This document shows, piece after piece, positions 19,926-35,273 of a stretch of 64,000 nt of DNA. The stretch comes from Mitsuaria chitosanitabida ATCC BAA-476 = NBRC 102408 (lineage in GTDB: Bacteria > Pseudomonadota > Gammaproteobacteria > Burkholderiales > Burkholderiaceae_C). The DNA lies in the NCBI RefSeq assembly GCF_001598255.1, contig NZ_BCYP01000027.1, positions 1-64,000 of the forward strand. The letters run 5' to 3'. The notes under the pieces were generated by a model, which searched no databases, was not told the origin of the DNA, and worked only from the letters and a program-made list of their open reading frames with translations. Within the stretch, counting starts at the first letter, position 1. Every line of letters starts with the position of its first letter. The translations under genes and the position numbers were made by a program.

Positions 19926-21944
19926 ATGGACACCCCGCGTCGCCCGCATCCGCTGTGGGCGGCATTCGACTTTCCGCGCCATCCGCTGGCGCGCGAGGAC
20001 GGCGAACGCGTGCGCGGCGCCTTCTTCGCGCCGCCCGTGGAGCACCTGATCGCGCGCGATCCGGAACGGCTGCGCACCGTGCTGCGCCTGGCGCATGCGG
20101 CGGCGCGGGCCGGCGCCTGGGTGCTGGGCGGCCTGCGCTACGAGGCGGCGGGCGCGCTGGATCCGGTGCTCGCCACCTGGGGCGCGCCGGCCGCGGCCAC
20201 CGCGAGCGGCGGCGCCCGCGCGGTCTCCGCCACGCCGGGTGCGCTCGGCGTCGGTGGCGTCGTCGGCGATCAGGGCCCGGGGGGCGATCCAGGTCCTCCG
20301 CTGGCGGAGTTCCTCGTCTGGGATCAGGCGCCCGCACCCTGGCCCGAGGATCTCGCCGCGGCCGGCGCGGCGCGCGCGCATCCGATGTCCGGCTGGACGG
20401 ATGCGCGTCCCGATGCCGATGGCATGGCCGACGTCGAGCGCATCCGCGAGTACATCCGCGCGGGCGACTGCTATCAGGTCAATCTGACCACCCGCCTGAC
20501 CGCCACCGCGGGCGACGGTTTCGATCCCGAGGCCCATTTCTTCGCGCTGCACGCGGCGCAGCCGGGCGGTTTCGCGCTGTTCCTGCGCACGGGGGAGGGC
20601 ACGGTGGCGAGCGTGTCGCCGGAGCTGTTCTTCGACTGGCGCCCGCTGCCCGAGGCGCCGCAGGCCAGCCACACCTGGCTGGTGTCGGCGCAGCCGATGA
20701 AGGGCACCGCGCCGCGCGGCCGCGACCGCGCCGGCGACGAGGCCGCCCAGGCCTACCTGCGCACCAGCGCCAAGGAGCGCGCCGAGAACCTCATGATCGT
20801 GGACCTGCTGCGCAACGACCTGTCGCGCGTGGCGGTGCCGGGCTCGGTGCGCGTGCCGCGGCTGTTCGAGCTGCACGCGCTGCCCACGGTCTGGCAGATG
20901 ACCTCCACCATCTCCGCGGTCACACGGGCCGGGTTGGCGCTGGACGAGGTGATGACCGCGCTGTTCCCCTGCGGTTCCATCACCGGCGCGCCGAAGAAGC
21001 GCGCCATGGAGGTCATCGTCGAGCTGGAGTCCGGGCCGCGTGGCTGGTACTGCGGCGCGCTGGGCCTGATGCAGCCGGGCGGGGCGGTGACCTTCAACGT
21101 GCCGATCCGCACCGTCGAGCAGCGCGGCGACGCGCTGCGCTGCGGCGTGGGCAGCGGCATCACGCTGGACTCCTCGCCGCGGGACGAGATCGACGAGTGG
21201 CGCGCCAAGGCGCGCTTCCTGTCGCGCGCCGCCGCGCCCATCGAGGCGCTGGAGACGCTGCGCCTGGACGACGGCGTGTTCACGCGTCTGGCGCGCCACC
21301 TGGCCCGGCTGCAGCGCTGCGCGCGGCATTTCGGGCTGGCGTGGTCGGCGGACGCGGTGAAGGCGCACCTGGCCGGCATCGCGCAGGCGCATCCGCTGGG
21401 ATCGTGGCGGGTGCGGCTGACGCTGGCGCGCGACGGCACGCCGGCCCACACGGTGGCCGCGCTGCCGCCGGCCGGCGATGCGGACGCCGACACGCCGCTG
21501 AACGTGGCGCTGGCCCTGGTGCCCATCGACACGCGCGGCCCCGACGCCGAATTCATCCAGCACAAGACGACGCGCCGCGCGCTGTACCAGGCCTTCCTGG
21601 ACGGCAAGCCGGCGGACTGCTTCGACGTGCTGCTGTTCAACCGGGACGGGGAGCTCACCGAGGGCTGCCTGACCAACCTCGCGCTGCGGCTCGAGGCCGA
21701 CGGGCCGTGGCTGACGCCGCGCGCCGACGCCGGCCTGCTGCCGGGCACGCTGCGCGAGGAACTGCTGGAACAGGGCCGGCTGCGCGAGGCGCGGCTGACC
21801 CTGGACGACTTGCGGCGCGCGCATGCGCTCGCCATCTTCAACAGTGTCCGGGGCTGGCGCGAGGCGCGGCTGCGGCACGAGGATCTTCATGACGACCACC
21901 ACCACACGGCGCCGTCCGACGGCGCGCAAGACCCGCGAGGCTGA
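19926..21944 (+). CDS. pabBC: Bifunctional aminodeoxychorismate synthase PabB / lyase PabC
   Basis: 672-residue fusion for p-aminobenzoate (folate) synthesis. Residues about 1-445 are a chorismate-binding PabB domain: QPMKGTAPRGRD, IVDLLRNDLSRVA, PCGSITGAPKKRAMEVI and GVGSGITLDSSPRDE. Residues about 450-670 are a class IV aminotransferase-fold PabC domain with the PLP lysine in FIQHKTTRRALY and LFNRDGELTEGCLTNLAL. The gene for the glutamine amidotransferase subunit is not in the window. The last 56 bases overlap the next gene in another frame, which accounts for the odd His/Asp tail. Confidence 0.93.
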   Translation: MDTPRRPHPLWAAFDFPRHPLAREDGERVRGAFFAPPVEHLIARDPERLRTVLRLAHAAARAGAWVLGGLRYEAAGALDPVLATWGAPAAATASGGARAVSATPGALGVGGVVGDQGPGGDPGPPLAEFLVWDQAPAPWPEDLAAAGAARAHPMSGWTDARPDADGMADVERIREYIRAGDCYQVNLTTRLTATAGDGFDPEAHFFALHAAQPGGFALFLRTGEGTVASVSPELFFDWRPLPEAPQASHTWLVSAQPMKGTAPRGRDRAGDEAAQAYLRTSAKERAENLMIVDLLRNDLSRVAVPGSVRVPRLFELHALPTVWQMTSTISAVTRAGLALDEVMTALFPCGSITGAPKKRAMEVIVELESGPRGWYCGALGLMQPGGAVTFNVPIRTVEQRGDALRCGVGSGITLDSSPRDEIDEWRAKARFLSRAAAPIEALETLRLDDGVFTRLARHLARLQRCARHFGLAWSADAVKAHLAGIAQAHPLGSWRVRLTLARDGTPAHTVAALPPAGDADADTPLNVALALVPIDTRGPDAEFIQHKTTRRALYQAFLDGKPADCFDVLLFNRDGELTEGCLTNLALRLEADGPWLTPRADAGLLPGTLREELLEQGRLREARLTLDDLRRAHALAIFNSVRGWREARLRHEDLHDDHHHTAPSDGAQDPRG

Positions 21945-24537
21945 GGCGATCGAGTCGCCCGCCACCGACGTCGCCGATCTGGCCATCGCGCCCACCGCCG
22001 AGGCCGATCCGGCAGTCGCTGCCGAACGTGCCGTCGCGATCGACGTGGCGCCCGTCGACGCGCCGGCCGAACCGGCGGGCAAGCCCCCGCGCAAGCGCGC
22101 CAGCCGCGCCAAGGCGCCTCGCGCCGCCGCAGCCGCGGTGGCCGACGCCGAGGTCGCCCGCGCTGCCGATGCCGCCGAGGTCGCAGCTGCCAACGACGCT
22201 GCCGCTGCCGCTGATGCTGATGCTGATGCTGGTGCTGATGCTGCGTCTGCCGACGACGTCGCCGCCTCGGTGACCGACGCCGCCAGCACGGCCGCCGAGG
22301 CCGATGCTGTCTTTGCCGACATCCTCGCCGAGGACGCCGCCAACGAGGCCGCCGGCGCCGTCGAAGCGCCCGTGCCGGCGCCCGCGCCGAAAAAGCGCCC
22401 CGCGCGCAAGCGCGCCGCGATCGCCGAGGTCGTGGCCGGGTTGATCGCCGATGTCGCCGCGGAAGCCGCCGCGCCGGTCGTGGCCGTCAGCGAGCTCCAG
22501 ACAGCATCGGGCTCGGCCCAGACCGTCGCGCCGATCGCCTCCGGCGAAGCGTCGGTGGACGCTGACGCCCCCGCCGCGATCGCCGGTGACGCGCTGGCCG
22601 CATCGTCGGAAGGCGCCGAGGCCGACGTCGATGCCGAGGCCTCAGCCGCAGCCGCAGCCGCGGCCGCGGCCGACGCGCCCGCCGGCCGCAAGGGCCGTCG
22701 CCAGCCGAAGGCCGAGCCGGTCGTCGAGGAAGTGCCGGCCGAGCCGCCGCGCTTCACGCTGGGCGCTCGCGAGGACGATGGCGTGTTCGGCGACTACGAG
22801 CTTCGGGACGGCGAGACCGGCGGCACCTTCCGCCTGCGCCTGCTCGGCCGCCAGACCTGGCGCTGCGACTGCGCCGGCTATCTGGCGCAGGGCGAGTGCG
22901 AGCACGGCGCTCACCTGCTGGCGACGCTCGACGAGGCGCAGCAGGCGGCGCTCGACGCCGGCTGGCCGGCGCGCGAGGCCGAGGTCTGGCTGGTTCCCGG
23001 CGCCGAGCGCCGTGTGCAGTGGGTCTGTGGCCGCGACGTGCCGGAGCATCTGCGCCACCAGCCGGGTCTGGACGAACAGCGGCGCCGTGGCGCCGAGGGC
23101 GCGCAGGCCTGGCTGCAGCAGGTGCTGGCCGAGGCGCGCGCGCTGGGCGTGGTCCTGCGCGTGGATGCGCCGGTGTGGCCGCAACTGTGCTGGGGCCGCG
23201 ATGCGCAGGCACGCGTGGAGCGTCTGGAGTCGGCGATGGCCGATGGCGCCGCGATGCGCGCGCTGCTGCGCGACGAGTTGCCGGTGCACGCCTGGGAAGC
23301 GGCGTTGTTCGCCGTCTGCGCCGGCCGCGCCCTGATTGCCGATGACCTGGGCCTGGGCCAGCGCGGCGCCGCGATCGCCGCGATCCGCCTGTGGGGCGAG
23401 CTGTTCGGCGTCAAGCCGGCCGTGGTCATCGCCCCGGAGGCCGCGCACGCCGCCTGGCGCCGCGATCTGCGCCGCTGGCTGGGCGACGAGGCCGCCACGG
23501 TGATGGTCGCCGTGACGCCGCCGGCCAAGCCCATCGCCGCGCTGCTGGTCGTCGATGGCATCGAGGCCGTGGCGCCCGAGGCCCTGGCCGAGCTGCGCGC
23601 CATGCCCGCCGCGCAGCTGCTGCTGATCGCGCATCAGGAGCCGCTGGGCGATGCCCGTCTGAACGACTGGATCGACTGGCTGGACCAGGCCCGCCGCGGC
23701 CCGCTGGCCGCGCTGCAGGCGCTGCCCGCCGACGCCGGCAAGAAGCACAAGCGCGAGGCGCTGGAGGCCGTCGTGCTGTCGCGCCGCAAGCGCGAGCTGG
23801 TCGATCAACTGCCCGAGGCGCTGCTGTCGCCGCTGTGGCTGGAGGCCGCCGGCGCCAGCCTGCCGTCCGCGCCGCTGAAGCAGATCCGTCAGCTGATCGA
23901 GCGCTGGACCGCGCTGCGCTTCCTCGGCAGCGCCGAGCAGCAGCAGCTGCTGGAAGCGCTGGCACTGCTGCCGCCCGCCTCGCGCCAGGCGCTGGCCGCG
24001 AAGGCCGAGGCGGTGCTCGCCCTGCGCCGCGAATGGATCCAGGGCGCCGTGCCGGCCGCCGCGCGACTGCTGATCTGCGCGCGCTCGGAGACGCTGCTGG
24101 ACAGCTTGTCGATGTCGCCGCAGCTGCGCCGCCTGCCGCCGCAGCGCCTGCGCGCCGACGACAGCGCCGAGGTCCGCGACGCCGCGCTGGCGGCCTGGCG
24201 CTCGGCGGAGGCCGGCGTGCTGCTGGCCAGCGACGACGCGCTCGCCAGCCTCGATCTGGACGCGTTGGCCGACGATCGCGTGGCCCTCGTCCATGCGGAC
24301 CTGCCGTGGCAGGCCGGGACGCTGGACCAGCGCGTGCTGTCCGCCGTCGGCGAGGACGCGCGTGGCGTGCCGGCCGCGCTGCTGCTGATCGAGGACTCGC
24401 TCGACGCGGCGGTGCTGCGGGCGCAGCGCGACGGCGTGGCCTTCCCGGCGTGGCTGGATGCCGCGCCGGTCTGGCTGGACGCCGATCAGCTCGCCGAGTT
24501 GATGGGCGTGCTGCCGAAGCTGCTCGAGGGGCTTTGA
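21889..24537 (+). CDS. SNF2-like protein with SWIM zinc finger and degenerate ATPase motifs
   Basis: 882 residues, start at 21889 with AGGAT nearby. Residues about 1-285 are Ala/Asp-rich with Lys/Arg patches (low complexity). A SWIM finger follows: Cys326-x-Cys328, Cys337-x-His339. The rest aligns by eye with SNF2 ATPases, but the key residues are lost: the P-loop DDMGLGKT is DDLGLGQR (Gln491, Arg492), the DEAH box is DGIE (556-559), and the motif VI region keeps DLPWQAGTLDQRV but not the following arginines. It is therefore predicted to be unable to hydrolyse ATP. The frame is intact over 2.6 kb, which argues for selection rather than decay. Possible roles are DNA binding or scaffolding; function unknown. 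Confidence 0.78.
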   Translation: MTTTTTRRRPTARKTREAEAIESPATDVADLAIAPTAEADPAVAAERAVAIDVAPVDAPAEPAGKPPRKRASRAKAPRAAAAAVADAEVARAADAAEVAAANDAAAAADADADAGADAASADDVAASVTDAASTAAEADAVFADILAEDAANEAAGAVEAPVPAPAPKKRPARKRAAIAEVVAGLIADVAAEAAAPVVAVSELQTASGSAQTVAPIASGEASVDADAPAAIAGDALAASSEGAEADVDAEASAAAAAAAAADAPAGRKGRRQPKAEPVVEEVPAEPPRFTLGAREDDGVFGDYELRDGETGGTFRLRLLGRQTWRCDCAGYLAQGECEHGAHLLATLDEAQQAALDAGWPAREAEVWLVPGAERRVQWVCGRDVPEHLRHQPGLDEQRRRGAEGAQAWLQQVLAEARALGVVLRVDAPVWPQLCWGRDAQARVERLESAMADGAAMRALLRDELPVHAWEAALFAVCAGRALIADDLGLGQRGAAIAAIRLWGELFGVKPAVVIAPEAAHAAWRRDLRRWLGDEAATVMVAVTPPAKPIAALLVVDGIEAVAPEALAELRAMPAAQLLLIAHQEPLGDARLNDWIDWLDQARRGPLAALQALPADAGKKHKREALEAVVLSRRKRELVDQLPEALLSPLWLEAAGASLPSAPLKQIRQLIERWTALRFLGSAEQQQLLEALALLPPASRQALAAKAEAVLALRREWIQGAVPAAARLLICARSETLLDSLSMSPQLRRLPPQRLRADDSAEVRDAALAAWRSAEAGVLLASDDALASLDLDALADDRVALVHADLPWQAGTLDQRVLSAVGEDARGVPAALLLIEDSLDAAVLRAQRDGVAFPAWLDAAPVWLDADQLAELMGVLPKLLEGL
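22210..22239 (+). repeat. GCTGAT hexamer array
   Basis: Five hexamers (four GCTGAT, one GCTGGT) encoding Ala-Asp/Gly in the low-complexity N terminus of the SNF2-like protein. It is frame-neutral, so copy number could vary. Confidence 0.7.
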
Positions 24538-24645: not shown

Positions 24646-26190
24646 TCAGCCCAATGACACCGGCCCGCGCGGCGACTTGAACACGCCGGCGGGATCGATG
24701 CTGGCCTTGAGCGCCCGCAGCCTCGTCACGTTGCCGCCGAAGTAGGCCGACGCCGGCAGCGCCGCGTCGGCGTTCGCGTAGTTGACGTAGGCGCCGCCGC
24801 TGGTCCAGGGCTTCATCGTGTCGCGCATGGACTGCGCCCACAGGCCGTCGGCGTGCAGCGTCGCCTCGTCGGCGGTGCCGAGACGGTTCTCCACCACGTA
24901 CTGCGCGCCGAACAACGCGTTGCGGTGCGGGAAGGCCGTCGCGTCCGGCGCCACGCGCGCGATCGCGCCGCCCATCAGGTCCAGCAGTGCCGCGCCCGGC
25001 CGGCCCGCCTTGGACCGCGCCACCATCGCGTCGGTCAGCGCCTGGATGCCGGCCGCCGGCAGGGTCTGGTGGTAGAAGTCGGAGCTCGCCACCATCGCCA
25101 CCCGCGGCAGGACGCCGCCGACGACCTGCGTGGGCAGGTGGCAGGCGGCGTTCGACAAGGTCCCGCAGTTGGCCAGCAGCAGCGACTCGCCGGTCATGTC
25201 GGCGGAGAACTGGTTCTGCGGCGTGCGGCCGCTCGCCGCGAGCAGGCCGTCCCACCAGGGCTTGAACTGGGCGTTGGTCGCCAGCGCGATGCCGATCAGC
25301 GTGATCGCCAGATCCCCCTTGGTGTCGCTGGCGATCGCGAGCTGGGACCAGGCCCACTCGGGCAGCGTCGCCGGCCAGGACTGCCAGGCCGCCAGCAGGG
25401 CCGGCAGGTCGGCCGCGGTGAAGTAGGCGATGGAGCCGCTGAGCGCGCCCATCGGCTGCGTCTGGAAGCGCAGCTCGGTCACGATGCCGAACTGGCCGCC
25501 ACCGCCGCCGCGCAGGCCCCAGAAGAGCTCCGTGTTCTGTGTCGCATCGCAGACGCGGGTCTGGCCGTCGGCGGTGATGACGGTCGCGCCGATCAGCGCG
25601 TCGCAGGCCAGCCCCATGGACCGGTCGAAGTAGCCGACTCCGCCCCCCAGCGTGATGCCGGTGACGCCGACCGTCACGCAACTGCCCGAGGGCAGGATGC
25701 GCCCGGCGCCGAGCACCGCGCGATAGACGTCGGCCAGCTTGGCGCCCGCGCCGACCACCGCCACCGTGCCGTCCATGCGGACGCTGTCCATGGTGCCGGT
25801 GTCGATCAGCAGGCCGCCGTCGCTCGTGGACGCGCCCACATAGCTGTGGGAGCCGCTGCGCAGCGCGAAGCTCATGCCTTTGCTTCGGGCGAAGGCGAAG
25901 GCCGCCGCGACGTCCGCGCCGCCGGCGCAGCGCGCCAGCGCGCGTGGCACGGCGCCGTCGTAGCGCGCGTTGGCGCCGGGGCGCAGGGTGCCGAAGTCGG
26001 CATCTGCGGGCAGGATCAACCGTCCCTGCATCTGCGCGGCCAGCGTCGCGAGTTCCGCGTCGCTGACTCCCTGCGTCGGTGGCACCGGCGTGACCGGCGC
26101 GCCGGGGCTGCCGCCCCCGCCACCACATCCGGCTGTCCAGCTTCCGGCGAGCACACCCATGCCCGCCGCCAGGAATCTCCGTCGGTCCAT
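24646..26190 (-). CDS. Secreted FAD-linked oxidoreductase (berberine-bridge type)
   Basis: 514-residue flavoprotein. The N terminus MDRRRFLAAGMGVLAGSWTAGC combines a Tat-like Arg-Arg motif with a lipobox, suggesting an exported, possibly lipid-anchored enzyme. FAD-binding (PP-loop) motifs: ALRSGSHSYVGAS, whose His is the usual covalent FAD site; a Cys in SGSCVTVGV at the place of the second covalent link in bicovalent relatives; GLACDALIGATVITADG; LRGGGGGQFGIVTEL. The C-terminal BBE segment contains YVNYAN and YFGGNVTRLRALKASIDP. The start at 26190 has GGGAGA; the open frame extends upstream without support. A TACACT box (26244-26249, minus strand) may be its -10. The substrate is unknown (family: sugars, alkaloids, alcohols). 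Confidence 0.85.
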   Translation of the reverse strand: MDRRRFLAAGMGVLAGSWTAGCGGGGGSPGAPVTPVPPTQGVSDAELATLAAQMQGRLILPADADFGTLRPGANARYDGAVPRALARCAGGADVAAAFAFARSKGMSFALRSGSHSYVGASTSDGGLLIDTGTMDSVRMDGTVAVVGAGAKLADVYRAVLGAGRILPSGSCVTVGVTGITLGGGVGYFDRSMGLACDALIGATVITADGQTRVCDATQNTELFWGLRGGGGGQFGIVTELRFQTQPMGALSGSIAYFTAADLPALLAAWQSWPATLPEWAWSQLAIASDTKGDLAITLIGIALATNAQFKPWWDGLLAASGRTPQNQFSADMTGESLLLANCGTLSNAACHLPTQVVGGVLPRVAMVASSDFYHQTLPAAGIQALTDAMVARSKAGRPGAALLDLMGGAIARVAPDATAFPHRNALFGAQYVVENRLGTADEATLHADGLWAQSMRDTMKPWTSGGAYVNYANADAALPASAYFGGNVTRLRALKASIDPAGVFKSPRGPVSLG

Positions 26191-26402
26191 CTCATGTCTC
26201 CCTGAGCGGTGATGGACTGCTGTGGTGAGTCCAGTCAAATACCAGTGTAGGACCGAAGAAATACCGATGAAAAGCCGATTCGCCTCGGTACGAACCCGGT
26301 GTGAAGGAGGTCAGGGGCGAGCACCCGCTCGGGCGTCGGCTTGGGGTGCAGATTTCGGGAGATGGGCCGCAGAAGGGGCTAGGTGGAAACCCGAAAACTG
26401 TT
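26191..26402. other. Gene-free stretch upstream of the oxidoreductase and the helicase leader
   Basis: Together with 26403-26820 this is about 630 bases without a supported gene. The left part is locally less GC-rich (26221-26290). It holds the probable oxidoreductase promoter on the minus strand. Small open frames on both strands show no family features. Confidence 0.6.
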
Positions 26403-26754: not shown

Positions 26755-26820
26755 CAGGCGCTCCGGCGCGACGTCCGTCCTGACGGCGTCGGCTTCGGCG
26801 TGCCCCATTTGGATTGCAAG

Positions 26821-28785
<1,965 letters not shown>

Positions 28786-30118: not shown

Positions 30119-31744
30119 ATGACAGTGATCCCGGGACGCGCGGACGACGCTCTGCGCGACGATCTCCCCGAACCCTCCTTCGAAGACTATTTCCGCGATG
30201 GCCAGCTGCCGCAGGACTCGCTCCTGTGGTGGCAGCTCGAACGCAACGAGGCCCTGCTGAGCGCGCAGCGCGCGCTGTTCCACGGCCCGGCCTCCCTGGT
30301 GCGTCTGCGCGTCTGGGTGTTCATCGAGCTGATGAGCCTCCCGCAGTCCCGGCTGTCGCGCGACGACCTGAACCGCCACTTCCACGTGCTGCGCGACGAC
30401 GCGCTGGAGCTCGTGCTCAAGCGCCTGCGCGACGCGCAGCTGCTGGCCTGGGACGCGTCCAACCAGCAATACGGCGTGACGCCGCTGGCGCAGCAGCTGA
30501 TGGCCATGGTCTCGCCGCTGACGCAAGGGCAGGGGCTGGACGAGGACAGCGATCTGGCCGGCCTGCTGGCCAACGTGGCCGGCGCGCAGCAGCTGGGCAC
30601 GTTGGAGCCGGCGCAGCTGCAGCATCTGCTGGCGCAGCTCTCGCGGCTGTACAACGAGTTCGCCGACGCGATCGCGTCCGGCTCCGAATTCCACCTGCGC
30701 CGCGCGCGCACGCGTTTCGAGCGGGCGCTCAAGCTGGTCGAGCGCGCCAGCGAGGCGCTGTCCGCGATCATCCAGCAGGCCCAGACCGACGGCAACGCGC
30801 GGCTGGAGCGCCTGGCGCGCGAGCTGGGCCTCGCGCAGGCCCGGCTGCTCGCGATGGCCAGCCAGTTCAACCGCGCGCTGCAGCAGGCCGATCGCCAGCG
30901 CGTGACGCTGGGCTCCACCGGCATCACGACCACCGACGTGCGGCGCTGGCTGCAGGACGTCCCCTTCCTCGAGAACCTGGCGCTGGGCGCGCTGTCGCGC
31001 CCGGTGCATCCGATCTTCGTCGCGCAGCATGAGCTGCTCGACGGCTGCGAGGCCGAGTTCGAGCGCGATCGCCCGGCTCCGCCCACGCCGGAACCGCTGC
31101 CCACCGGCCTGGCCGCGCCCCCGGGCGAGCTCGCGGTGATGAGCCTGCCGCCCGAGATGGGCCAGCTGCAGGCGCTGCTGGGCCGCTGGAGCGGCGACAG
31201 CGTGCCGATGAACGACCTGCGGCCGGCGGTGCTGGGGGGCAGCTACGCGCGCGCCGCGTATCGCGCGCAGCTGCTGCCGCTGCTGGGCGACCCGCAGGCG
31301 CAGCATCTGGCCGGCGCGACCGGCGACATGGCGCGCCAGCCCTGGCGGGTGCGCTGGTCCGCGCAACAGGGCGCGGTCGACGACGAGTTCGTCCGCTGGA
31401 TGAGTCAGGGCGTGCTGCACACCACCGACGTCGAGCCGCCGGTCGAGCCCGAGTTCCAGCCCAAGTGGAAACCGGCCGAGCCGCCCGCGCCGAAGCGTGG
31501 CCGTCGCAAGGCCGCCGTCGAGGCGCCCGCCGACGCCGCGCCGGCGAGCGCCGATCCCGACGCCACGGTCGACGCCAGTGCCCTGGACGTCAGCGCCGAC
31601 ACCGCCGCCGAGATGGCGCCCGCCGCCGCCGCGGCCACCTTCGAGACGACGGCCCAGGCCGCCGATTCCCCCGACACTCCCGCCTCGATCGACGCGCCCG
31701 CGGGCGCGCGGCCGGTCGAGGACGACACGCCTTCCCAGTCATGA
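30119..31744 (+). CDS. mksF: MksF-like kleisin subunit of an SMC complex (JetA-like)
   Basis: 541 residues. It has an N-terminal winged-helix-like region (about 15-130: FEDYFRDGQLPQDSLLWWQLER, VLKRLRDAQLLAWD), a long helical middle part rich in Leu/Ala/Arg (about 140-300), a C-terminal region of mixed structure to about 450, then an Ala/Asp/Pro-rich disordered tail. Length and position as first gene before a small KITE-like gene and an SMC gene match the MksF-MksE-MksB order known from Pseudomonas and JetA-JetB-JetC of Wadjet. The stop overlaps the next ATG (ATGA). The assignment rests mainly on operon context. Confidence 0.65.
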   Translation: MTVIPGRADDALRDDLPEPSFEDYFRDGQLPQDSLLWWQLERNEALLSAQRALFHGPASLVRLRVWVFIELMSLPQSRLSRDDLNRHFHVLRDDALELVLKRLRDAQLLAWDASNQQYGVTPLAQQLMAMVSPLTQGQGLDEDSDLAGLLANVAGAQQLGTLEPAQLQHLLAQLSRLYNEFADAIASGSEFHLRRARTRFERALKLVERASEALSAIIQQAQTDGNARLERLARELGLAQARLLAMASQFNRALQQADRQRVTLGSTGITTTDVRRWLQDVPFLENLALGALSRPVHPIFVAQHELLDGCEAEFERDRPAPPTPEPLPTGLAAPPGELAVMSLPPEMGQLQALLGRWSGDSVPMNDLRPAVLGGSYARAAYRAQLLPLLGDPQAQHLAGATGDMARQPWRVRWSAQQGAVDDEFVRWMSQGVLHTTDVEPPVEPEFQPKWKPAEPPAPKRGRRKAAVEAPADAAPASADPDATVDASALDVSADTAAEMAPAAAAATFETTAQAADSPDTPASIDAPAGARPVEDDTPSQS

Positions 31745-32454
31745 GCAATCAACTCGACGACGCCGCGCAACTCGCGGCTCAACTGCTGGCGCGACGCTGG
31801 CTGCCGCGCAATCAGCCCCTGGTGCGCCGCGCGCTGATCGACCAGGAGCTCTGGCGCGCGGTCAACGAGCGGGTGGCCGCCGTCGGCCTGCGCGTCGTGG
31901 ACAACGTCTACGCCGACCACATCACGCTGGCGATGCTGCGCCCGGCCGAGGTCGCCGTCTTCGGCGAGACCGGCCTGGCCTCCAACAACAACCTGGACTT
32001 GCCCCGCGACGGCGTGGCGCTGCTGGTGGTGCTGTGGGCGCTGATCGTGCTGCCCAAGCGCCAGCGCCAGCTCGCCCGCGCCGAGGAAGCCGCGGAAGGG
32101 CAGGGCGAGATGTTCGCCAAGGACAAGCCGTTGCCCAGCGCCGCGAGCAGCGCCCCCACGCTGTCCTACCGCAGCCTGCTGGCCGACTTCGGCAATCAGC
32201 TGGGCAAGAAGATGCGGCTGGACTCCAACCTCAAGCTGCTCGAGCGCCAGGGCTTCATCACCCGCAAGGGCGAGGACATCTGCGAGGGCCCGCTGCTGGA
32301 CCTGCTGCTGGACTACGACACGCTGGCTCCGCGCATCCTCGACGGGGCGCTGGCCGACGTGCTCGCCCGCAGCACCGACGGCGAGGCCGGCCCGATGCTG
32401 ACCGCCATCCTGGCCGCCCGCCACAACGAAGAATCCGACCTGAGCGACGCCTGA
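31741..32454 (+). CDS. mksE: MksE-like KITE subunit (JetB-like)
   Basis: 237 residues, of the size of MksE. It contains tandem winged-helix-like blocks, including QPLVRRALIDQELWRAVNER at the N terminus, YRSLLADFGNQLGKKMRLDS in the middle, and LKLLERQGFITRKGEDICEGP typical of KITE proteins; the C terminus is acidic. KITE proteins bind the kleisin and regulate the SMC ring. The TGATG junction couples it to the SMC gene. Confidence 0.65.
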   Translation: MSNQLDDAAQLAAQLLARRWLPRNQPLVRRALIDQELWRAVNERVAAVGLRVVDNVYADHITLAMLRPAEVAVFGETGLASNNNLDLPRDGVALLVVLWALIVLPKRQRQLARAEEAAEGQGEMFAKDKPLPSAASSAPTLSYRSLLADFGNQLGKKMRLDSNLKLLERQGFITRKGEDICEGPLLDLLLDYDTLAPRILDGALADVLARSTDGEAGPMLTAILAARHNEESDLSDA

Positions 32455-35273
32455 TGTTTCACCTGCAATCCCTGGAACTGCTGCACTGGGACTACTGCCG
32501 CCGTGTCTCGATGCCGCTGGACGGCAACATCATCACCATCGCCGGGCCCAACGGCTCGGGCAAGACGACGCTGCTGGACGCGATGCGGACGCTGCTGGGC
32601 CTGGAGTGCTCCGGCGGCCGGACCTACAAGACCTACGCCCGTCACGCCAACGCCGAGCATGCTTGGTTGCGGGCGCTCGTCGACAACCGGCCCCGCAGCC
32701 GCCAGAACAGCAGCCGCCCGTTCGCGAGCTCGCTGTTGTACGCGGACCAGGTGACCCTGGCCTGCCGCATCTCGCGCCAGGGCGGCGACTGGGTGCGCCG
32801 CTACATCCTGGTCGACGGCGTCCACGAGATCGAAGAGCTCGACACCAAGGCCGAGAAGGACTGGCTGGGCATAGAAGCCTGGAAGAAGCGCCTGGAGGCC
32901 GCCGGCCTGACACGCGCCATCGGCCGCGTGCTGGCGCTGGAGCAGGGCCAGACCGACCGCCTGTGCGAGCTCTCCTCCAAGGAGCTGCTGCGCCTGGTCT
33001 TCGAGGTCTTCGGCGACCAGGAGGTGCTGGACCGCTACGAGCTCGCCCGCAACCACCAGCAGCAGCTGGTCAAGGAAGTCGAGCAGGCGGCGCATGAGCT
33101 CTCGCATGCGCAGGCGCAGCTGTCGGACCTGTCCAATCGGGTGACCAGCTACCAGCAGTACCAGCTGCGGCTCAAGGAGCGCGAGCGCCTGGCCACCGAG
33201 GTCGTGCCGGTGCTGCAGTGGAGCGAGCAGCGCCAGCGCACCGCGCAGCAGCTGCGCGAGCTGCATCGGCAGCGGCTCTTCGCCCGCTCGGACGAGCGCG
33301 GCATCAGCGACAAGCGCGCCCATCTGCTGGCGCTGTTCAAGGCTCAGGAAGCGGCCAAGGACAAGCTGGCGGACCTGGAGCAGCAGCGCAAGGACGCGCG
33401 CCAGGCCTTTGAGGCCGCGCGTGACGGCGAGCGCCCGATGGAGCAGCTCGCCAAGCGCGAGGAGGATCTGAAGGCGCTGGCCGCGGTGGAGACCGATGGC
33501 GCGGCGCTGACCGCCAAGCTCGAGGAGCTTGGCACGCGCCAGCATCAGCTGCGCGAGAGCTTCACGCGCCAGAACGACCAGCAGCGCAAGGCGCAGGCCG
33601 CGATGGACGAGCTGACCGGCCACCGCCTGCCGCCGCCGCCCGTGGAGGTGACGCGCTTCCGCAAGGCGCTGGACGAGGCGGGCATCGCCCACCACGTGCT
33701 GGCCGACGCGATCGACATCGCCGACGAGCAGTGGCGCGCCGCCGCCGAAGGCTTCCTGCGCCCGTCGCGCTGGGTCGTGGTGCTGGCGCGTGCCAGCGAC
33801 GAGGGGCAGGCCTATCGCCTGGCCTCGCGCGAGCGCTATCGCCATTACGTCGTCGCCGATGGCGAGCACGCGCCGACGGTGAGTCCCAAGGACAGCCTGA
33901 TGTCGGTGCTGCGCTTCAACGCGAAGGCGCCGGGCTGGCTGCTGCGGCAGCTGGCGTCGATCCGCTGCGTGGGCGACACCGACAAGGGCGCGCAGGCCGG
34001 CGGCGAGTGGATCACGCCCGAGGCCTACTACCGCGACGGCCGCGGCGGTCGCAGCCTGTGGGTCGAGCCGCGCGAGTACCAGTTCGGGGACTCCGCGCTG
34101 GATGCGCGTCGCGCGTCGCTCGAGAAGGAGCTCGCCCGCTACGACCTGGAGCTGTCCAAGCTCGCCAAGGAGCAGCTGGAGATCGAGCGCCAGCTCAAGG
34201 ACGCGCAGCGCGCGGCGCAGGGTCACAAGGCGGCGCAGGAGCTGGTCGAGCGGGCCGAGGAGTTCGCCCAGGCGCGCGCCCGCCTGCCGGGTCTGCGTCA
34301 GGCGCGGATCGAGGCGGCGACGCGCATGGGCGCGCTGGACCAGGAGCACGACCGCTCGGTGGCCGCGTCGACGCGGGCCGAGCGCGACTACGAGGCCGCG
34401 CAGGCCGGCCTGAAGGCCAGCGAGGAGAACGTGCTGCGCGCCGAGCGCGACTGGGCCTCCAAGCGCGACGATCTGCTGGGCCTGGCGAAGCACTCGCGCG
34501 AGGCCAAGGACAAGTTCCCGGTCGCGTGGGTGCATCCGATGCGGCTGCAGTCGCTGCGGGACGAGTTCGAGAACGCCAAGCAGGCGGAGATCGCCTCGCG
34601 TCACGTCCAGCAGGAGCTGGACACCGGCGTGTGGGAGACCGATGCCGGCGTGCAGGAGCGTCACGCGCGCATGCAGCTGGCGGTGCTGGAGCAGACCACG
34701 CAGCTGGACGACCGCCGCGCGAGCAACGAGATGGCGCGGATCGCCGCGTTCAACGCGCGCGAGCGCTACATCGACGTGCTGCGCGCGACGGTGCGCCGCT
34801 ACAAGAAGAATGTCCAGGAGCTGGGCGAACTCGCCGGTGTGCATGCGCAGGCCGAGCTGCCGCACCTGGACAACGACGACACGGTGCTGGCGCAGGCCGG
34901 CCTGCACGTGAAGTTCAACTTCGACGGCAAGGGTGAAGTCGGTCTGAACGACGGCGAGGCCTCCGGCGGGCAGCAGGTGCTCAAGAGCCTGATCCTGCTG
35001 GTGGGGCTGATGAAGGACGACGACGCGCCGGGCGGTTTCGTCTTCATCGACGAGCCCTTCGCCCACCTGGACGTGCGCAACATCCAGCTGGTGGGCCACT
35101 TCCTGAAGAGCACGCGCGCGCAGTACCTGCTGACCACGCCGATCACGCACAACGTCGAGGTCTTCGAGCCCTCGGAGATCACGCTGGTCACGAGCAAGAA
35201 GCCGCGCGGCGAGCGCTGGGCCCCGCCGATCGCGGTGCTGGCGCGCCGGCCGGAGGTGTCGGTCTACGACTGA
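32454..35273 (+). CDS. mksB: MksB-like SMC ATPase (JetC-like)
   Basis: 939-residue condensin ATPase. The N-terminal head has Walker A GPNGSGKTT (Lys37). Coiled coil covers roughly 200-400 and 510-780 with many Gln/Glu/Arg heptads. The hinge lies around 410-480 (HHVLADAIDIADEQWRAAAE, YRHYVVADGEH). The C-terminal head has an unusual signature LNDGEASGGQQ (around Ser837) and Walker B FVFIDEPFAHLD (Asp866, Glu867). It is shorter than canonical Smc (about 1170) and matches MksB/JetC length. Expected to entrap or extrude DNA loops; in plasmid-defence versions it acts with a JetD nuclease, which is absent here. Confidence 0.8.
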   Translation: MFHLQSLELLHWDYCRRVSMPLDGNIITIAGPNGSGKTTLLDAMRTLLGLECSGGRTYKTYARHANAEHAWLRALVDNRPRSRQNSSRPFASSLLYADQVTLACRISRQGGDWVRRYILVDGVHEIEELDTKAEKDWLGIEAWKKRLEAAGLTRAIGRVLALEQGQTDRLCELSSKELLRLVFEVFGDQEVLDRYELARNHQQQLVKEVEQAAHELSHAQAQLSDLSNRVTSYQQYQLRLKERERLATEVVPVLQWSEQRQRTAQQLRELHRQRLFARSDERGISDKRAHLLALFKAQEAAKDKLADLEQQRKDARQAFEAARDGERPMEQLAKREEDLKALAAVETDGAALTAKLEELGTRQHQLRESFTRQNDQQRKAQAAMDELTGHRLPPPPVEVTRFRKALDEAGIAHHVLADAIDIADEQWRAAAEGFLRPSRWVVVLARASDEGQAYRLASRERYRHYVVADGEHAPTVSPKDSLMSVLRFNAKAPGWLLRQLASIRCVGDTDKGAQAGGEWITPEAYYRDGRGGRSLWVEPREYQFGDSALDARRASLEKELARYDLELSKLAKEQLEIERQLKDAQRAAQGHKAAQELVERAEEFAQARARLPGLRQARIEAATRMGALDQEHDRSVAASTRAERDYEAAQAGLKASEENVLRAERDWASKRDDLLGLAKHSREAKDKFPVAWVHPMRLQSLRDEFENAKQAEIASRHVQQELDTGVWETDAGVQERHARMQLAVLEQTTQLDDRRASNEMARIAAFNARERYIDVLRATVRRYKKNVQELGELAGVHAQAELPHLDNDDTVLAQAGLHVKFNFDGKGEVGLNDGEASGGQQVLKSLILLVGLMKDDDAPGGFVFIDEPFAHLDVRNIQLVGHFLKSTRAQYLLTTPITHNVEVFEPSEITLVTSKKPRGERWAPPIAVLARRPEVSVYD

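Follow-up and report, generated by a model that had tools for sequence, protein, structure and literature searches.

A SWIM-SNF2 homologue with eroded catalytic motifs, retained beside pabBC in nine bacterial genera, as a candidate pseudo-translocase

Introduction

SWIM-SNF2 ATPases are already known, according to the accessible part of one report (PMC5512222), and so are pseudohelicases. Deinococcus radiodurans PriA is a pseudohelicase for which the accessible part of its description gives measured DNA binding that is kept without ATP hydrolysis (PMC4504706). Utp25/Def, a eukaryotic pseudohelicase, belongs to the SSU processome of ribosome assembly, as stated in the accessible part of the corresponding paper (PMC9539457). 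On the other hand, no dead bacterial SNF2 protein or SNF2 pseudoenzyme turned up in the open literature, among the matches listed.

In this study, we analyzed 64,000 nucleotides of DNA from Mitsuaria chitosanitabida (the whole stretch is called the window below), in which a preliminary description had recognized a SNF2-family pseudo-ATPase with a SWIM zinc finger. The protein, here named pseudo-SNF2, resembles PriA in that motifs of a helicase family were eroded across a lineage while the protein was kept. However, PriA serves in replication restart and belongs to another family; its lack of ATPase activity and its retained DNA binding were measured, as far as the accessible part of that report goes (PMC4504706), whereas pseudo-SNF2 is known from its sequence alone. 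With Utp25/Def it shares the retention of a dead helicase-like protein in evolution, but the latter is part of the eukaryotic SSU processome (PMC9539457, accessible part). On the sequence side, pseudo-SNF2 would qualify as a pseudohelicase, with homology to helicases, eroded catalytic motifs and retention over a lineage.

Results

Homology to SWIM-SNF2 ATPases

The gene and its parts are located in the window as follows:

21889..24537, + strand: pseudo-SNF2 gene, 882 aa (ORF list and translation)
21889..22728, + strand: low-complexity Ala-rich N-terminal tail with basic patches (translation)
22864..22905, + strand: residues 326-339, SWIM-type finger of the form CxC...CxH; 33 of 34 window-type rows retain the ligands
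23326..23367, + strand: pseudo Walker A, residues 480-493, with Q for K and R for T (translation, alignment)
23551..23565, + strand: pseudo Walker B VDGIE, residues 555-559, Asp in 34 of 34 rows and Glu in 5 of 34
24295..24348, + strand: pseudo motif VI ADLPWQAGTLDQRVLSAV, residues 803-820; 34 of 34 rows keep its Trp and first Arg, 0 of 34 its last Arg

The frame, in a genome resembling those of Roseateles, runs from an ATG at 21889 to a stop at 24535-24537 and encodes 882 residues. A GAGGA stretch lies shortly 5' of this ATG, and an alternative in-frame ATG upstream, at 21823, is a possible start.

Relatives were collected from a family sample of 299 genomes, 39 of which matched the profile at E 1e-6. 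By motif reading, 22 of these were window-type (nine genera), 9 intact (nine genera) and 5 odd (four g28 and one g75), and three weak matches (G093, G074 and G241) were set aside. With 12 further genomes of the genus the window-type set comprised 34 rows, and with G038 the intact set comprised 10.

When a profile of ten window-type sequences was compared with seven intact SWIM-SNF2 proteins, the match spanned 604 columns, beginning at the SWIM finger and reaching the C terminus (E 1.7e-79), and in this profile-profile comparison the C-terminal 600 residues aligned end to end with the intact ATPases. Thus, the window protein was shown by profile comparison to be a homologue of the SNF2 core, which supports the preliminary assignment. 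The intact bacterial proteins (10 rows, e.g., L086, L085 and L023) have the same SWIM finger, linker and two-lobe order over these 604 columns, and all seven that were compared matched both Pfam SNF2-rel_dom and Helicase_C. Among ten window-type members, SNF2-rel_dom was matched by five and Helicase_C by seven. The single window sequence reached 12.6 bits against SNF2-rel_dom (cut-off 24.9), and its C-terminal part matched no Pfam family at E 0.01. Annotation may therefore name such proteins helicases or hypothetical, because a single sequence falls below the Pfam cut-off. The Pfam SWIM model was matched by one of ten window-type members (E 0.0072) and not by the window protein, nor by any of the seven intact relatives at E 0.001.

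Weaker evidence came from PDB sequences, among which a 13-row profile had 15 matches at E 0.01. CHD1 ranked first (E 5.7e-7 for the whole sequence, with no single stretch significant alone), its ILADEMGLGKT being aligned with the altered P-loop, followed by DEAD-box helicases from 1.4e-5 and, lower, ISWI. An AlphaFold model of the C-terminal part, made with six similar rows, was of low confidence (mean pLDDT 48.9); with this model Foldseek ranked ISW1, RapA and Mot1 at the top and then Rad54, at E 1e-6 to 1e-5 and a TM-score to the query of 0.14-0.19. Lobe 1 modeled alone, again with a weak model (pLDDT 60.2, pTM 0.58), gave no Foldseek match at E 0.001, the first rank being an unrelated COG1565 protein, followed by RapA and ISW1.

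Two other assignments were rejected. Regarding an anti-phage defense helicase (ZorD, DpdE or DrmD), pseudo-SNF2 matched none of the PADLOC families at E 0.001, whereas an intact relative matched 52, and its sole NCBIfam match at E 0.1 scored 16.9 bits against a cut-off of 1100. A plasmid-borne gene was not indicated either, there being no match in the plasmid collection.

Erosion of the catalytic motifs

A SWIM domain is defined by the metal ligands CxCx(n)CxH, which residues 326-339 of the window protein fit with C326, C328, C337 and H339. The finger, described earlier as intact, was borne out by the translation, and among the 34 window-type rows only carrier G022 is without it. The earlier readings of the segment DLPWQAGTLDQR, of GLGQR in place of GLGKT (Q491 for Lys, R492 for Thr) and of DGIE in place of DEAH, within a box II that reads VVDGIE, were also correct. 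Motif VI had been said to lose its arginines; this holds for the later ones, but the first (R815, in 'QR') is retained in the window and in all other window-type rows.

The intact rows read GDEMGLGKT, DEAQR[IV]KN and QRI[GA]R[IV]HRMGQ, with the motif VI arginines present, whereas these motifs are eroded in the window-type rows. The SNF2 patterns GxGKT (Walker A), DExx (Walker B) and QRxGRxxRxGQ (motif VI) are all absent from the window protein. In the alignment, the Walker A Lys is found in 10/10 intact rows and in 0/34 window-type rows. Among the latter, Lys is replaced by Gln in 27 and Thr by Arg in 27, both together in 25; the other nine have His-Arg, Gln-Gln, Gln-His, Leu-Tyr or Met-Gln. 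The second Arg of motif VI is kept in 11/34 rows, and the last, lost from every window-type row, is present in 10/10 intact rows. In SF2 enzymes, hydrolysis should not survive the loss of these two residues, Lys of Walker A and the last Arg of motif VI, to which most rows add the loss of the Walker B Glu. Among the window-type rows, the Glu survives only in the g30/g94 branch, in five of its six rows. Since this branch is sister to the other 28 rows, the distribution suggests that Lys and the last Arg may have been lost first and Glu later.

Column entropy in 17 window-type rows was lowest in the Q-motif/P-loop region (mean 0.80 for residues 461-480 and 1.07 for residues 481-500); other 20-residue blocks had 1.11-2.09, the margin over residues 421-440 being small. 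It was above that of the intact rows in every 20-residue block compared, the two row sets differing in number and spread.

The N-terminal tail, described previously as Ala/Asp/Lys-rich and as a possible binding site for DNA or partners, varies in composition. Counted from the first possible start codon, it is Lys/Ala/Pro-rich in 9/14 regions (Lys+Arg 16-24%, Asp+Glu 4-12%), which corrects that description. In 5/14 regions, all from Roseateles and including the window (five of the six Roseateles regions), it is more acidic than basic, which weakens the idea of a DNA-binding tail for the window protein. In L023, the sole intact protein read at its N terminus, the tail is short, in contrast with the long one of the window protein.

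Distribution and selection

In a tree of 58 rows, the 34 window-type rows formed one clade covering nine genera (SH-aLRT 99) and the intact SWIM-SNF2 proteins a separate one (SH-aLRT 99), with the odd rows branching just outside the window-type clade. This was a quick tree without bootstrap, for which the tool flagged long branches and uneven composition, so the position of the odd rows is unsure. The gene was present in all 16 genomes of the genus that were searched, each with Asp-Asp-Leu-Gly-Leu-Gly-Gln-Arg, and close named homologues were found at five loci (four Roseateles and one Rubrivivax MAG). Of 349 genomes sampled across the order, 11 matched at E 1e-20, and all ten loci read besides the window's own have GLGKT and DEAQ. 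Recent decay in this genome only is ruled out by the clade of nine genera and the 16/16 genus genomes. The homologues with intact GKT and DEAQ, which might have pointed to such decay, group in a clade of their own and are located elsewhere in their genomes. The altered P-loop is thus a conserved property of close homologues, as the preliminary description had proposed to examine, and from this tree the loss of the catalytic site is placed before the split of the nine genera.

The preliminary description had taken the stop-free 2.6 kb frame as a sign of selection. Selection was borne out, but this argument is weak in DNA of 71% GC, the value for the window. Third-position GC is 0.89 in the frame (21823-24537) and 0.79-0.96 in successive 300-base pieces from 21889. 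From base composition alone, 882 open codons would arise by chance with a probability of about 1e-5; however, antisense frames of 652 and 980 aa overlapping the same stretch are also open, so that openness proves little. Conservation and dN/dS are better evidence. None of the 22 window-type genomes has a stop within the matched stretch. In ten pairs of five Roseateles genomes, dN/dS was low (0.23-0.33) and similar to that of pabBC (0.22-0.37). Among the pairs listed, the 22 closest, compared over 589-606 codons (247 in one pair), gave values of 0.10-0.34 in 20 cases and 0.53-0.54 in two. All 325 pairs of 26 rows, mostly distant, had a median of 0.60 and a maximum of 1.14. We took the distant pairs as unreliable, probably because of saturation and extreme GC3, and therefore relied on the close pairs and the pabBC control, which show that pseudo-SNF2 is under purifying selection.

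Genomic neighborhood

Three neighboring genes are considered here:

19926..21944, + strand: pabBC (Pfam chorismate-binding and class IV aminotransferase), directly 5' of pseudo-SNF2
24646-26238, - strand: berberine-bridge-type FAD oxidase, between pseudo-SNF2 and the DEAD-box gene, in some regions only
26800..28785, + strand: DEAD-box helicase, 3' of pseudo-SNF2

We found pabBC directly upstream on the same strand in 15/15 pseudo-SNF2 regions (nine genera). In the window, the start ATG overlaps the end of pabBC by 56 nt, and in all 14 regions measured an ATG start candidate lies -62 to +65 nt from the pabBC stop. The DEAD-box helicase is downstream on the same strand in 14/15 regions (the exception being L004), sometimes past other genes. 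Gene calls in these neighborhoods were crude, being made by script, and in G038 (L106) missed the intact gene itself. The intact relatives are located elsewhere: in seven regions, neither the pabBC-upstream nor the DEAD-box-downstream arrangement was observed, a pabB-like gene in G077 being a convergent neighbor.

Among pabBC regions from non-carriers, pseudo-SNF2 was found in none of the 17 that were readable (18 were taken; L119 ends inside pabBC), the sole profile match being the DEAD-box helicase of L111 (E 2e-4). A DEAD-box gene from the same cluster occurs close to pabBC in 7 of these 17. In a pabBC tree of 31 rows, carriers fell into three groups (supports 90, 88 and 92) that agree with those of the gene tree, and presence of pseudo-SNF2 changes five times. 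This pattern would fit an ancestral gene with about four losses, with ten forks of the pabBC tree being open. The gene is dispensable, because it is missing from the site in about four lineages that belong to the same pabBC clade.

Discussion

Loss of the fuel site before several genera split, with the protein kept beside a folate-pathway gene, suggests that pseudo-SNF2 probably works without burning ATP. The reading we favor, to which we assign roughly an even chance, is that of a pseudo-translocase, i.e., a SWIM-SNF2 homologue without SNF2-type ATP hydrolysis that is kept as an ATP-independent binding scaffold. It is favored by what has been retained, namely the SWIM finger, the helicase parts in their usual order, Asp of Walker B, the first Arg of motif VI and the Q-motif/P-loop, together with a tail that is basic in nine of 14 regions, and it has a precedent in PriA. 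ATP hydrolysis by the SNF2 mechanism would have been lost, and the protein may be tethered through its tail and SWIM finger to a partner or to nucleic acid. Its two putative RecA-like lobes would then act as a fixed clamp or docking surface, not as a motor, in a protein that is probably translated together with pabBC.

The fact that the Q-motif and P-loop are the best-conserved blocks, albeit by a small margin over residues 421-440, gives a hint that the pocket still does something, which counts against a plain scaffold. The main rival to the scaffold or clamp is a switch without hydrolysis, in which a nucleotide or some other phosphate ligand, still bound by the altered pocket, controls the protein. 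The Gln-Arg pair in 25/34 rows and in 16/16 genus genomes and the Walker B Asp in every row are in its favor, but the Walker A Lys is absent throughout, nine rows have other pairs, and conservation of the P-loop may be structural; we regard this switch as rather unlikely. A little less probable again is that pseudo-SNF2 regulates or targets an active enzyme as one of its subunits, this enzyme being either the DEAD-box helicase encoded downstream or an intact SNF2 protein from elsewhere in the genome. It would agree with the DEAD-box gene 3' on the same strand in 14/15 regions and, for SNF2, with Pfam matches outside the pseudo-SNF2 gene in 19/20 carriers searched, the window's genome encoding one with GLGKT and DEAQ. 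However, such matches are equally common in non-carriers (11/12), so that co-occurrence gave no signal of a partnership; carrier G006 has no Pfam SNF2 match at all, and the DEAD-box gene stays near pabBC in 7/17 readable regions that lack pseudo-SNF2.

That pseudo-SNF2 serves pabBC, as a regulator or partner of para-aminobenzoate synthesis, seems improbable to us. Adjacency on one strand in 15/15 regions of nine genera, with overlap or an ATG candidate within 65 nt in the 14 measured, would be expected of such a partner, but pabBC does without it in 17/17 readable non-carrier regions, and unrelated genes are commonly co-transcribed. Hydrolysis of ATP through an unusual arrangement of residues has very little to recommend it: homology is full-length and the Walker B Asp invariant, but all 34 rows are without the Lys of Walker A and the last Arg of motif VI, and 29/34 lack the Walker B Glu. 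We give equally little credence to a slowly decaying remnant without function. Entropy above that of the intact rows in all blocks compared (for row sets of different number and spread), several losses at the locus and the high distant-pair dN/dS (median 0.60 in 325 pairs) would agree with decay; dN/dS among Roseateles like that of pabBC and matches without stops in every carrier argue against it.

A more specific reading may be imagined, though we hold it to be a long shot: in a pseudo-SNF2 that extends over the clade, the mostly conserved Gln-Arg P-loop could have become a ligand sensor or lock on an ATP-free nucleic-acid clamp made in step with the PABA synthase PabBC. If true, such a ligand-locked, ATP-free clamp would be a kind of SNF2-derived regulator that has not turned up in bacteria in the open literature, among the matches listed. 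SNF2 proteins are treated as motors, and a natural family that lost the motor before nine genera diverged, and still looks selected, would show cleanly what an SNF2 frame can do when ATP is not used. The material is unusually complete, since a single bacterial family includes the intact relatives, the eroded clade and a side lineage in which erosion is partial.

Additional observations

A second eroded SNF2 lineage, g28 (L066, L067, L076 and L088, in genomes G173, G256, G324 and G042), was sister to the window-type clade (SH-aLRT 88, unstarred). Its motifs V and VI are eroded or missing, as in window-type proteins, but it differs from them in keeping the Walker A Lys and Walker B Glu and in having no SWIM finger. 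In G173, its gene follows tgt (queuine tRNA-ribosyltransferase), and in G256 and G324 it is likewise preceded by a member of the tgt cluster (3/3 regions looked at). Another odd relative, L078/L099 of genome G089, has GLGKT and QRLSRVHRTDR on a long branch and is without SWIM. An intact-type SWIM-SNF2 in genome G476 (L134) is split over two frames of 423 and 352 residues.

Finally, three overlapping frames in the window (30119-35273, + strand) resemble an SMC/MukB-type condensin set. The 1258 aa frame is SMC-like, with JetC matches of up to about 74 bits; the 541 aa frame has no good family match and the 329 aa frame no PADLOC match. Related genes recur near the locus in some relatives.
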